Made by a program: the position numbers and the translations under genes. From NCBI RefSeq assembly GCF_003344865.1, contig NZ_CP031165.1, positions 2,671,910 to 2,735,909 on the forward strand: a stretch of 64,000 nucleotides of DNA. Reading direction: 5' to 3'. The notes under the pieces are model-generated. The model did no database searches, had not been told where the DNA came from, and saw only the letters and a program-made list of their open reading frames with translations. Shown one piece after another: positions 31,757 to 64,000 of this stretch (within the stretch, counting starts at the first letter, position 1; every line of letters starts with the position of its first letter). Origin of the DNA: Euzebya pacifica. Its GTDB lineage: Bacteria > Actinomycetota > Nitriliruptoria > Euzebyales > Euzebyaceae.

Positions 31757-31838
31757 GTCGGCGTCCCGACCGGCGTCGACGGTGGTGCGCGGCCGGTCGG
31801 GCCGCCCGGCCACCTCGCCCGTCGGGTGACTCGCCGCG

Positions 31839-31844
31839 TACCCT
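31839..31844 (+). promoter_or_regulatory. -10 element TACCCT, probable leaderless promoter of leuS
   Basis: TACCCT ends eight bases before ATG 31853. No T-box leader fits in this short distance. Confidence 0.4.
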
Positions 31845-31852
31845 CGGGCACG

Positions 31853-34504
31853 ATGAGCAGCGACACCAACGGCGCCCCGCGCAGCCACGCCTACGACCCC
31901 GCCACCATCGAGCCCCGGTGGCAGGCGTACTGGGCCGAGCACGAGACCTTCAAGGCGGTCGAGGACCCCTCCCGCGAGAAGTTCTACGCCCTCGGCATGT
32001 TCCCGTACCCCTCGGGGTCTGGGCTGCACGTCGGCCACCCCGAGAGCTACACCGCCGTCGACCTCGTCGCCCGCTACAAGCGGATGAAGGGCTTCAGCGT
32101 CCTCAACCCCATGGGCTTCGACAGCTTCGGCCTGCCCGCCGAGCGTGCCGCCCAGCGCGACGGCATCCACCCGGCCGTCATCACCGACGAGCGCATCGAG
32201 TACTTCCGCACCCAGCTGCGTCGCCTCGGGTTCGCCTACGACTGGTCGCGGGAGGTCGTCTCCTCCCACGCCGACTACTACCGCTGGACGCAGTACATCT
32301 TCCTGAAGCTCTACGAGAAGGGGCTGGCCTACCTCGACGAGGTGCCGGTGTGGTGGTGCGAGGCACAGGGCACCGTGCTGTCCAACGAGGAGGTCGTGGA
32401 CAACCGGTACGTCGAGACCGGTGACCCGGTCGTCCGGCGGAACATGAAGCAGTGGATGCTGCGGATCACCGAGTACGCCCAGGAGCTGCTGGACGACCTC
32501 GACCAGCCGCTGCCCGACGGGCAGGAGCTGGACTGGCCCGAAGGCGTCCTGGAGATGCAGCGCCAGTGGATCGGTCGGTCCGAGGGCGCGGAGGTCACCT
32601 TCGTCATCGATGGGACCGACGAGGACTTCGTCGTCTATACCACCCGTCCCGACACGCTGTTCGGGGCCACCTACTGCGTCCTGGCGCCCGAGCACCCGCT
32701 GGTGGCGAGGATCACCACCGACGCGCAGCGCGCCGAGGTCGAGGCGTACGTGGAGAAGGCCATCTCCCGTTCCGAGCTGGACCGGCAGATGGGCGACGCC
32801 AAGGACAAGACGGGTGTCGACACCGGCGCTCGGGCCACCAACCCGGTCAACGGCGAGGCCGTGCCGATCTGGGTCGCCGACTACGTCCTGTCCAGCTACG
32901 GCACTGGCGCCATCATGGCCGTGCCCGCTCACGACGAGCGCGACCACGCCTTCGCGCGCAAGTTCGACCTGCCGATCGTCCCGACCTACACGCTGCCCGA
33001 CGGCCACGACATCCAGGCCGAGGCCTACGTCGCCAGCGCCGGTGAGACGGTGATCAACTCCGGCGAGTTCGACGGCATGGCGCTGGAGGACTGCAAGGCC
33101 GCCCTGATCGACTGGCTCGAGGCAGAGGGGAAGGGCGAGCGGAAGGTCAACTTCAAGCTGCGTGACTGGCTGTTCAGCCGTCAGCGCTACTGGGGCGAGC
33201 CGTTCCCGATCCTCCACATCCTCGACGACGAGGGGAACCCGACCGGCGAGATCGTCCCGGTCCCCGTGGAGGACCTGCCCGTCGAGCTGCCGCACGTCGA
33301 CGAGTACAAGCCGACCGCCACCGGCGAGCCGCCGCTGGCCCGTGCGACCGACTGGCTGTACACCACCGCTCCCGACGGCCGTCCGGCGATGCGCGAGACC
33401 AACACGATGCCGCAGTGGGCGGGGTCGTGCTGGTACTACCTGCGCTACACCGATGCCGACAACACCGAGCTGCCGTTCAGCCAGGAGAACGTTCGCTACT
33501 GGGGCGACGTCGACCTCTACATCGGTGGGGTCGAGCATGCCGTCCTGCACCTGCTGTACGCCCGCTTCTGGCACAAGGTCCTGTTCGACATCGGCCTGGT
33601 GCCGACCCGTGAGCCGTTCACCCGGTTGGCCAACCAGGGGATGATCCTGGCCAACAGCTATCGGCGGACGACCGGCAAGTACGTCCACCCCGACGACGTC
33701 GAGCAGCGGCCCGGCCAGACGGTCACCATGACGAGCGCCCACACCCAGGAGGAGGTCCGGACCGACTGGTTCGTCACCGGCACCGACACCCCCGTGGAGC
33801 AGAAGTCGGGGAAGATGGGCAAGAGCCTGAACAACTCCGTGGACCCGCTGGAGATCATCGAGCGGTTCGGTGCCGACACCCTGCGGCTGTACGAGATGTT
33901 CATGGGGCCGCTGGACCAGACGAAGGTCTGGAACACCTCCGGCTGCGAGGGCATCCACCGCTTCCTGTCGCGCACCTGGCGGCTGTTCGTCGACACCTCC
34001 GACGCCGAGACCGCCGGTCAGCTGCGTCCGATGCCCGAGGAGACCCCCCGCGAGGCCCGCAAGGCCCTGCACACCGCCATCAAGGAGGCGACGACGGGCA
34101 TCGAGGAGCTGAAGGTCAACACCCCCATCGCCAAGATGATGGAGCTGGTCAACACCTGCAGCGGCAAGCCGATGGCGAAGGCCGACATGGAGGCGTTCGC
34201 GCTGATCCTCTCGCCCTACGCCCCGCACCTGGCCGAAGAGCTGTGGTCACTGATGGGCCACGACGAGTCGCTCGCCAACGAGCCGTGGCCCGAGTGGGAC
34301 GAGTCGGCCCTGGTGGAGGACACCATCACCATCGCCGTGCAGGTCCAGGGCAAGCTGCGCGGCACCGTCGAGGTTCCCAACGGCGCCGACAAGGACACGG
34401 TCCTGGCCGCCGCCAGGGCCGAGGTGGCCGCACAGCTGGACGGCAAGGTGATCCGCAAGGAGATCGTCGTCCCGGGCCGCCTCGTCAACTTCGTGGTGGG
34501 CTAG
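31853..34504 (+). CDS. leuS: Leucyl-tRNA synthetase
   Basis: An 883-residue class I aminoacyl-tRNA synthetase that charges tRNA-Leu. The HIGH-type motif is HVGH at residues 59-62, the editing (CP1) domain contains the conserved TTRPDTLFGATYCVLAPEHP, and the KMSKS-type loop is KMGKS at 654-658, followed by LNNSVDP. The GK-x-GKSL variant is also seen in mycobacterial LeuRS, so it is not a defect. The C-terminal anticodon-binding and tRNA-contact domains are present. ATG 31853 is preferred over an upstream frame extension. Confidence 0.97.
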   Translation: MSSDTNGAPRSHAYDPATIEPRWQAYWAEHETFKAVEDPSREKFYALGMFPYPSGSGLHVGHPESYTAVDLVARYKRMKGFSVLNPMGFDSFGLPAERAAQRDGIHPAVITDERIEYFRTQLRRLGFAYDWSREVVSSHADYYRWTQYIFLKLYEKGLAYLDEVPVWWCEAQGTVLSNEEVVDNRYVETGDPVVRRNMKQWMLRITEYAQELLDDLDQPLPDGQELDWPEGVLEMQRQWIGRSEGAEVTFVIDGTDEDFVVYTTRPDTLFGATYCVLAPEHPLVARITTDAQRAEVEAYVEKAISRSELDRQMGDAKDKTGVDTGARATNPVNGEAVPIWVADYVLSSYGTGAIMAVPAHDERDHAFARKFDLPIVPTYTLPDGHDIQAEAYVASAGETVINSGEFDGMALEDCKAALIDWLEAEGKGERKVNFKLRDWLFSRQRYWGEPFPILHILDDEGNPTGEIVPVPVEDLPVELPHVDEYKPTATGEPPLARATDWLYTTAPDGRPAMRETNTMPQWAGSCWYYLRYTDADNTELPFSQENVRYWGDVDLYIGGVEHAVLHLLYARFWHKVLFDIGLVPTREPFTRLANQGMILANSYRRTTGKYVHPDDVEQRPGQTVTMTSAHTQEEVRTDWFVTGTDTPVEQKSGKMGKSLNNSVDPLEIIERFGADTLRLYEMFMGPLDQTKVWNTSGCEGIHRFLSRTWRLFVDTSDAETAGQLRPMPEETPREARKALHTAIKEATTGIEELKVNTPIAKMMELVNTCSGKPMAKADMEAFALILSPYAPHLAEELWSLMGHDESLANEPWPEWDESALVEDTITIAVQVQGKLRGTVEVPNGADKDTVLAAARAEVAAQLDGKVIRKEIVVPGRLVNFVVG

Positions 34505-62575: not shown

Positions 62576-63466
62576 TCAGCGTCCCAGGACGTGGCGCAGG
62601 GCCGGGCCCAGGTCGGGGAAGGCGAACTCGTAGCCGTCGGCCAGCAGCCGCACGGGTTCGACCCGCTGGGAGTGGAACAGCAGCGCGTCGGCCAGCTCGC
62701 CCAGCAGCAGCTTGGGCCCGAAGGCGGGCACTGGCAGGAACGCCGGCCGGTTCAGCACGTCGGCCAGCACCTCGGTGAACTCCGCGTTGGTCGTCGGGTG
62801 CGGGGCCGTGACGTTGTAGGCGTCGTTGGCGTCGTCGTTGGACAGCGCCCACCGGACGGCCCCCGACACGTCGTCGATCGCGACCCACGGCCACCACTGC
62901 TCACCGGAGCCGAAGCGGCCGCCCGCACCCAGCTTGAACAACGGCAGCATCTTCTGCAGGGCGCCTCCCGACGGGTCCAGCACGATGCCGAACCGCGGGT
63001 GGACGACCCGGACACCGGCGTCGCGGGCAGGCTCGGCGGACTCCTCCCAGACCTTGACGACCTCGGCCAGGAAGTCATCGCCCGGCGGGGTCTTCTCGGT
63101 GATGACCTCGTCGCCCCGATTCCCGTAGAGCCCCACCGCGCTGGCGGAGATCAGGACGCGGGGACCACCGTCGGCCTTCGCAACGGCCTCGGCGATCGTC
63201 GTTGTGCCCTGGCGGCGGCTCTCCATGATCCGCTGCTTCTGCTTGTCGGTCCAGCGGCCTGCGCCGATGGACTCACCCGCGAGGTGGATGACGGCGTCGA
63301 CACCGCGCAGCGCGGAGGGATCGAGCGGTCCCTCGGGGCGCCACCGGATCTCGCCGGCGTTGGCGTGGCGGCGCACCATCGGCACGACCTGGTGCCCGTC
63401 GGCGAGGAGGTCGGCGGACAGCCGCGAGCCGATCAGGCCGCTGGATCCGGTCATGGCGATCTTCAT
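62576..63466 (-). CDS. TIGR01777 family NAD-dependent epimerase/dehydratase
   Basis: A 296-residue extended SDR-type protein. The nucleotide-binding GSSGLIGSRL is at residues 7-16 and VDAVIHLAGESI follows; the C-terminal conserved segment with PVPAFGPKLLLGELADALLFHSQRV is typical of TIGR01777 (YfcH/SulA-like). This family is found in many bacteria; its substrate is not known with certainty. ATG 63466 gives the usual MKIAMTGSSG start. Confidence 0.92.
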   Translation of the reverse strand: MKIAMTGSSGLIGSRLSADLLADGHQVVPMVRRHANAGEIRWRPEGPLDPSALRGVDAVIHLAGESIGAGRWTDKQKQRIMESRRQGTTTIAEAVAKADGGPRVLISASAVGLYGNRGDEVITEKTPPGDDFLAEVVKVWEESAEPARDAGVRVVHPRFGIVLDPSGGALQKMLPLFKLGAGGRFGSGEQWWPWVAIDDVSGAVRWALSNDDANDAYNVTAPHPTTNAEFTEVLADVLNRPAFLPVPAFGPKLLLGELADALLFHSQRVEPVRLLADGYEFAFPDLGPALRHVLGR

Positions 63467-63621: not shown

Positions 63622-63695
63622 GCCCCCGTAGTCCAACCGGCAGAGACACACGACTCAAACTCGTGCCAGTGTGGGTTCGAATCCCACCGGGGGTA
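63622..63695 (+). tRNA. tRNA with CAA (leucine) anticodon in a class I body
   Basis: A 74-base cloverleaf. The acceptor stem is GCCCCCG / CGGGGGT (one G-U pair), discriminator A; the D loop has GG at 18-19; the anticodon stem is CACGA / TCGTG with loop CTCAAAC, so the anticodon is CAA (codon UUG, Leu); the T arm is GTGGG-TTCGAAT-CCCAC. The variable loop has only five bases (CCAGT), whereas bacterial tRNA-Leu normally has a long variable arm. The CCA end is not encoded. It may be an active Leu tRNA of unusual type or a tRNA-like gene. Confidence 0.85.
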
Positions 63696-63723: not shown

Positions 63724-64000
63724 ATGCGCAATCCGTTCCCCTCCGCCCGAGACCGGGCGGCACGGAAGCTCGTGCGCATCCGGAGCAAGGTCGCCGACCT
63801 GGACCGCCAGCTGGCGGTCCTCGACGAACAGCTGATGTTCCTCAGCCAGGTCGAATCCGAGGCGCAGACCGATGCGGTCGTCGCCGGACACGACGTGGCA
63901 GCCCGGGAACATCGCGCTGCACGGTCCGACCTGGACCGCACACGACGCCAACGAGACGAAGTCAAGGCCTCTCGGGACCGTCTGCTCGTGGAGCAGGACA
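63724..64000 (+). CDS. Coiled-coil protein, 5' part
   Basis: An open frame from ATG 63724 to the end of the window (92 complete codons). The product is rich in Arg, Asp, Glu, Leu and Gln and forms an almost continuous coiled coil (KVADLDRQLAVLDEQL, then SDLDRTRRQRDEV). Similar short coiled-coil proteins are conserved in actinobacteria without known role. It starts 28 bases after the tRNA. The opposite strand is also open here, but the plus-strand product has the more natural composition. The C-terminus is outside the window. Confidence 0.65.
   Translation, partial: MRNPFPSARDRAARKLVRIRSKVADLDRQLAVLDEQLMFLSQVESEAQTDAVVAGHDVAAREHRAARSDLDRTRRQRDEVKASRDRLLVEQD

Follow-up and report, generated by a model that had tools for sequence, protein, structure and literature searches.

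Bacterial leucine tRNAs are by textbook rule class II, with a long variable arm, and a gene that combines a leucine anticodon with a short variable loop raises the question of which amino acid it carries and whether it is in use at all. Such a gene lies at 63622–63695 of the window, i.e. the whole stretch of 64,000 nucleotides of Euzebya pacifica DNA analysed here, and an initial annotation, made from the letters alone, had left two alternatives, an unusual leucine tRNA for the codon UUG or a tRNA charged with another amino acid. We find that it is very probably this organism's regular chromosomal tRNA-Leu for UUG, built on a class I body, which would be expressed, charged with leucine and read UUG as leucine. 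The gene is real and, judged from its sequence, looks functional; it departs from the textbook rule but is nothing exceptional within its phylum.

The gene encodes a complete class I cloverleaf with anticodon CAA

The gene and its parts are as follows.

63622–63695 (+): tRNA-Leu(CAA), class I, 74 nt, CCA not encoded (ARAGORN, Rfam and numbering)
63631–63647 (+): D-arm, positions 10–25, with A15, G18G19, A20a and G21 (leucine-type D-loop) and a C13·A22 mismatch (numbering; A15, A20a and G21 in all leucine tRNAs of the genome)
63656–63658 (+): anticodon CAA, reader of UUG (ARAGORN, Rfam and numbering)
63666–63670 (+): short variable loop CCAGU, U48 pairing with A15 (numbering; U48 present in all 38 class I Leu(CAA))
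63695 (+): discriminator A73 (numbering)

ARAGORN called a tRNA-Leu(caa) at 63622, and the Rfam model RF00005 matched 63622–63695 over its full length (model positions 1–71 of 71) with 55.1 bits (E = 3.9e-9; gathering score 29). Residue-by-residue numbering gave an acceptor stem of 7 bp including a G1·U72 wobble, a D-stem of G10–C25, U11–A24 and C12–G23 with C13·A22 unpaired, the anticodon C34A35A36 and a variable loop of C44 C45 A46 G47 U48. These 5 nt place the tRNA in class I (variable loop of 4–5 nt) and outside class II (long variable arm of at least 10 nt). The complete 74-nt class I cloverleaf with anticodon CAA that had been described is thus confirmed by ARAGORN, the full-length Rfam match and the numbering; another anticodon alignment under a covariance model had been named as its possible refuter, and the Rfam alignment puts the same CAA anticodon in place. 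The minimum-energy structure computed for the bare transcript differs from the cloverleaf, as is not uncommon for an unmodified tRNA. The G1·U72 wobble (window positions 63622 and 63694) is shared by the majority of Leu(CAA) genes, class I and class II alike, in the window's class, while Mycobacterium has G1–C72.

Leucine identity elements are retained without the long arm

In E. coli tRNA-Leu, A73, A15–U48, G18G19 and A20a are essential for leucylation, and the sequence and folding of the long arm are uncorrelated with it, arm-less variants staying active (PMC9976931, a review). By the numbering, the tRNA at 63622–63695 has all of these elements, sharing with the class II tRNA-Leu of E. coli type also the 13/22 mismatch and the anticodon CAA. 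All 8 leucine tRNAs of this genome combine A15–U48, A20a, G21 and A73, a combination seen in none of the 65 other tRNAs parsed.

The discriminator A, already taken to fit leucine, was borne out as A73, which all leucine tRNAs of the genome carry. The T at position 48 and the mismatched fourth pair of the D-stem (C13·A22) are present as first described, but were wrongly taken for oddities; they are rather marks of leucine identity, because U48 forms the A15–U48 pair and positions 13 and 22 are mismatched in all leucine tRNAs of this genome, and because A15–U48 is essential in E. coli. This tertiary set supports the first alternative, a leucine tRNA for UUG, and its presence in every leucine tRNA and none of the 65 others speaks against the second. 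On these features the gene is very probably a true leucine tRNA for UUG, without the long arm but with the other features that the leucine enzyme is known to read.

The class of leucine tRNA follows the codon box

The genome (6.37 Mb) consists of a 5.80-Mb contig, on which the window lies, and a second contig of 0.57 Mb. According to the genome tRNA list, the chromosomal Leu(UAG), Leu(GAG) and Leu(CAG) are class II and Leu(CAA) and Leu(UAA) are class I; therefore the split follows the codon box, the UUR readers being class I and the CUN readers class II. No CAA-anticodon gene other than that at 63622–63695 was found on the chromosome in this list. The genome-wide check for a class II tRNA-Leu(CAA) that the initial annotation had proposed thus gave none on the chromosome and one on the second replicon, inside an array of 32 tRNA genes. 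The array (L061 4979–18605, about 345–359 kb of the second contig) covers most amino acids and holds three class II leucine tRNAs, including the Leu(CAA), which has a mismatch in its anticodon stem.

Class I and class II forms alternate at one conserved locus

The genes around the tRNA are the following.

62576–63466 (−): divergent upstream gene, NAD-dependent epimerase family with DUF1731 (Pfam; context only)
63724–64000 (+): small downstream open reading frame, running off the window
64066–64659 (window-equivalent, just beyond the window): gene of an ANTAR-type regulator, a conserved neighbour, named ANTAR from reading of the sequence alone

The ANTAR gene adjoins Leu(CAA) at 40 of 52 class I loci and 15 of 16 class II loci, counts in which a few loci appear more than once, and none of the Leu(UAA) genes; the class II tRNA-Leu of relatives thus sits at the same ANTAR-adjoining locus as the gene studied here. 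Among 66 genomes of the window's class, 11 had class I Leu(CAA), 38 had class II and none had both on the chromosome, while by pattern neither form was found in 17; a class II pattern match in genome G004 was discounted as not tRNA-like. Because of the shared ANTAR locus and the mutual exclusion within the class, the two forms are alternatives of one gene.

The class I Leu(UUR) pattern occurred in 27 of the 66 genomes of the class and in 83 of 396 genomes sampled from the phylum, about seven of these 83 being evident chance matches. Carriers among the matches listed include Mycobacterium, Nocardia, Rhodococcus, Gordonia, Corynebacterium, Bifidobacterium, Nocardioides, Amycolatopsis and some Streptomyces such as Streptomyces lincolnensis, from a scan of named carriers that was selected for class I and yields no frequency. 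Class I Leu(CAA) at the same chromosomal place is, by these comparisons, widespread in the Actinomycetota; hence the word 'unusual' in the initial annotation holds against the textbook class II rule but not against the gene's own phylum.

The two forms differ in their core as well as in the variable loop (about 15 nt in class II versus 5 nt here). The class I Leu(UUR) set, drawn from relatives and named genomes (38 CAA and 86 UAA), has C12–G23 and C13·A22 throughout and mostly A9 and A46, while the class II set (n = 12) has G9, G12–C23 and G13·A22; the tRNA at 63622–63695, with A9, C12–G23 and C13·A22, is of the former kind. The search pattern prescribed A14, A15, A20a, G21 and A22 (and G23 for the named genomes) in most class I sequences, so that agreement at these positions proves nothing. 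The positions U48, A73, A9, C12, C13 and A46 were free in the pattern. Among them, U48 and A73 are present in every one of the 38 class I Leu(CAA); of the 86 class I Leu(UAA), 85 have U48 and all have A73. Loss of the arm is accompanied by a rebuilt D-stem core with A9, C12–G23, C13·A22 and mostly A46.

How one form came to stand in place of the other bears on origin. Four genomes of one genus divide evenly, G030 and G032 carrying class I and G034 and G059 class II Leu(CAA), and in G030, G032 and G034 the gene was seen to adjoin the ANTAR gene; in a tree of the ANTAR proteins the class label changes about 5 times, at least 3 of them on well-supported branches. Both observations would fit a swap of the forms at the locus through transfer or recombination, with a phage or a tRNA array as a conceivable source, in both of which class I-length tRNA-Leu genes occur, instead of a change within the gene. 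Against a swap, the two forms of Leu(CAA) have almost the same acceptor and T arms in the class, in keeping with a within-gene change, and a gene of 74 nt is too short to settle its origin. We regard such a swap as quite possible, though not as the reading to be favoured; it is compatible with the gene being the standard chromosomal tRNA-Leu for UUG.

A single leucyl-tRNA synthetase and the reading of UUG

31826–34504 (+): leucyl-tRNA synthetase (LeuRS), the presumed charging enzyme (TIGR00396, 1014.7 bits, positions 1–842 of 843)

The LeuRS said to be encoded in the window was located at 31826–34504. No other full-length LeuRS was found in the genome, where the next match to TIGR00396 scores 61 bits. 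Because the leucine set is present and the long arm is dispensable in E. coli, this single LeuRS most likely charges the tRNA at 63622–63695. In the mechanism that we propose, the one enzyme would charge the expressed class I tRNA, and UUG would be decoded as leucine. The LeuRS gene itself has a single UUG. All 29 homologues have Leu at the corresponding residue, and 28 of the 29 encode it by a CUN codon. In the same comparison for the UUG codons of a second gene of the window, Leu was the commonest residue but made up 46 of about 150, a loose signal that is nearly uninformative.

It is very unlikely that the gene is decaying or unexpressed, with the reading of UUG left to Leu(UAA) or to the class II Leu(CAA) in the array on the second replicon. 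The array does hold such a gene, and scans near the tRNA, of a kind that is weak for GC-rich actinobacteria, gave neither a sigma-70-like promoter nor a terminator match. Against this, the gene is 96–100% identical among four congeners, three congeners have no class II Leu(CAA) by pattern, the stems are intact and the locus has been kept across the phylum. Charging with another amino acid and a recoded UUG, to which a class I body could in principle open the tRNA by admitting other synthetases, is scarcely credible and was rejected in view of the leucine identity elements, the invariant leucine position on which the LeuRS UUG falls, the lack of another CAA reader found on the chromosome and the same class I gene serving phylum members such as Mycobacterium.

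The LeuRS carries about 50 extra residues (about 610–660) directly before the KMGKS motif, which are absent from most sampled Actinomycetota LeuRS and are probably the leucine-specific domain. An adaptation of LeuRS to class I tRNA was considered for this insert and rejected, its presence not tracking with class I among the compared genomes (from tables, with no statistic).

Relation to known short-armed leucine tRNAs

In much of the Actinomycetota, mycobacteria included, the UUR tRNAs break the rule of class II leucine tRNAs in bacteria, and the interest lies more in this phylum-wide pattern than in the single gene at 63622–63695. In M. tuberculosis, tRNA-Leu-2, 3 and 5 are listed with long variable loops (PMC11541572), a list which implies that the remaining leucine tRNAs have none. 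Class I Leu(CAA) was found in M. asiaticum and M. colombiense; the mycobacterial gene differs from that of the window in its acceptor stem sequence, with G1–C72 for G1·U72, and in having the ANTAR gene on the other side and in opposite orientation. The human mitochondrial tRNA-Leu(UUR) has an origin separate from the bacterial short-armed form. It is likewise charged by LeuRS without a long variable arm, and differs by a weak anticodon stem and a mitochondrial LeuRS (PMC9976931). In the open-access literature searched, no paper was found that treats class I as a usual property of UUR tRNAs in actinobacteria or reports a class switch, which is weak evidence of absence.

The class I UUR tRNAs amount to a natural, in-cell test of the laboratory result that LeuRS dispenses with the long arm, and they matter for tRNA annotation models and for the study of mycobacterial toxins that act on tRNAs via the variable arm. 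A wider proposal, speculative and on balance unlikely, is that the core tRNA-Leu(CAA) of Actinomycetota switched repeatedly in place between the classes, and that a class I UUR set apart from the class II CUN set lets the cell treat UUR codons separately, e.g. for modification, for regulation or as a defence against tRNA-targeting toxins that recognise the variable arm. Pairs of genomes from one genus that differ in form at the same locus allow the question to be tested directly.

Short variable loops are also known from mobile clusters, such as a mycobacterial tRNA cluster with a short-loop tRNA-Leu(TAG), for which the long loop was called the expected form (PMC6582537). The class I tRNA-Leu of mobile clusters and phages, some of the phage genes being similar to that at 63622–63695, are extra copies, whereas the latter is a core chromosomal gene. 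A tRNA-Leu similar in length and sequence was seen in phages of Synechococcus, Microcystis, Pseudomonas, Myxococcus, Gordonia and Streptomyces, most annotated as such (records H2–H19). Class I-length leucine tRNAs with several anticodons were observed in tRNA clusters of an Actinomycetes MAG (L201), Microcoleus (L211) and Acidobacteria (L220), and class I-length Leu(UAA) in stretches with two or three tRNAs each that by record name belong to Planctomycetota (L160), Rokuibacteriota (L163) and Deltaproteobacteria (L187).
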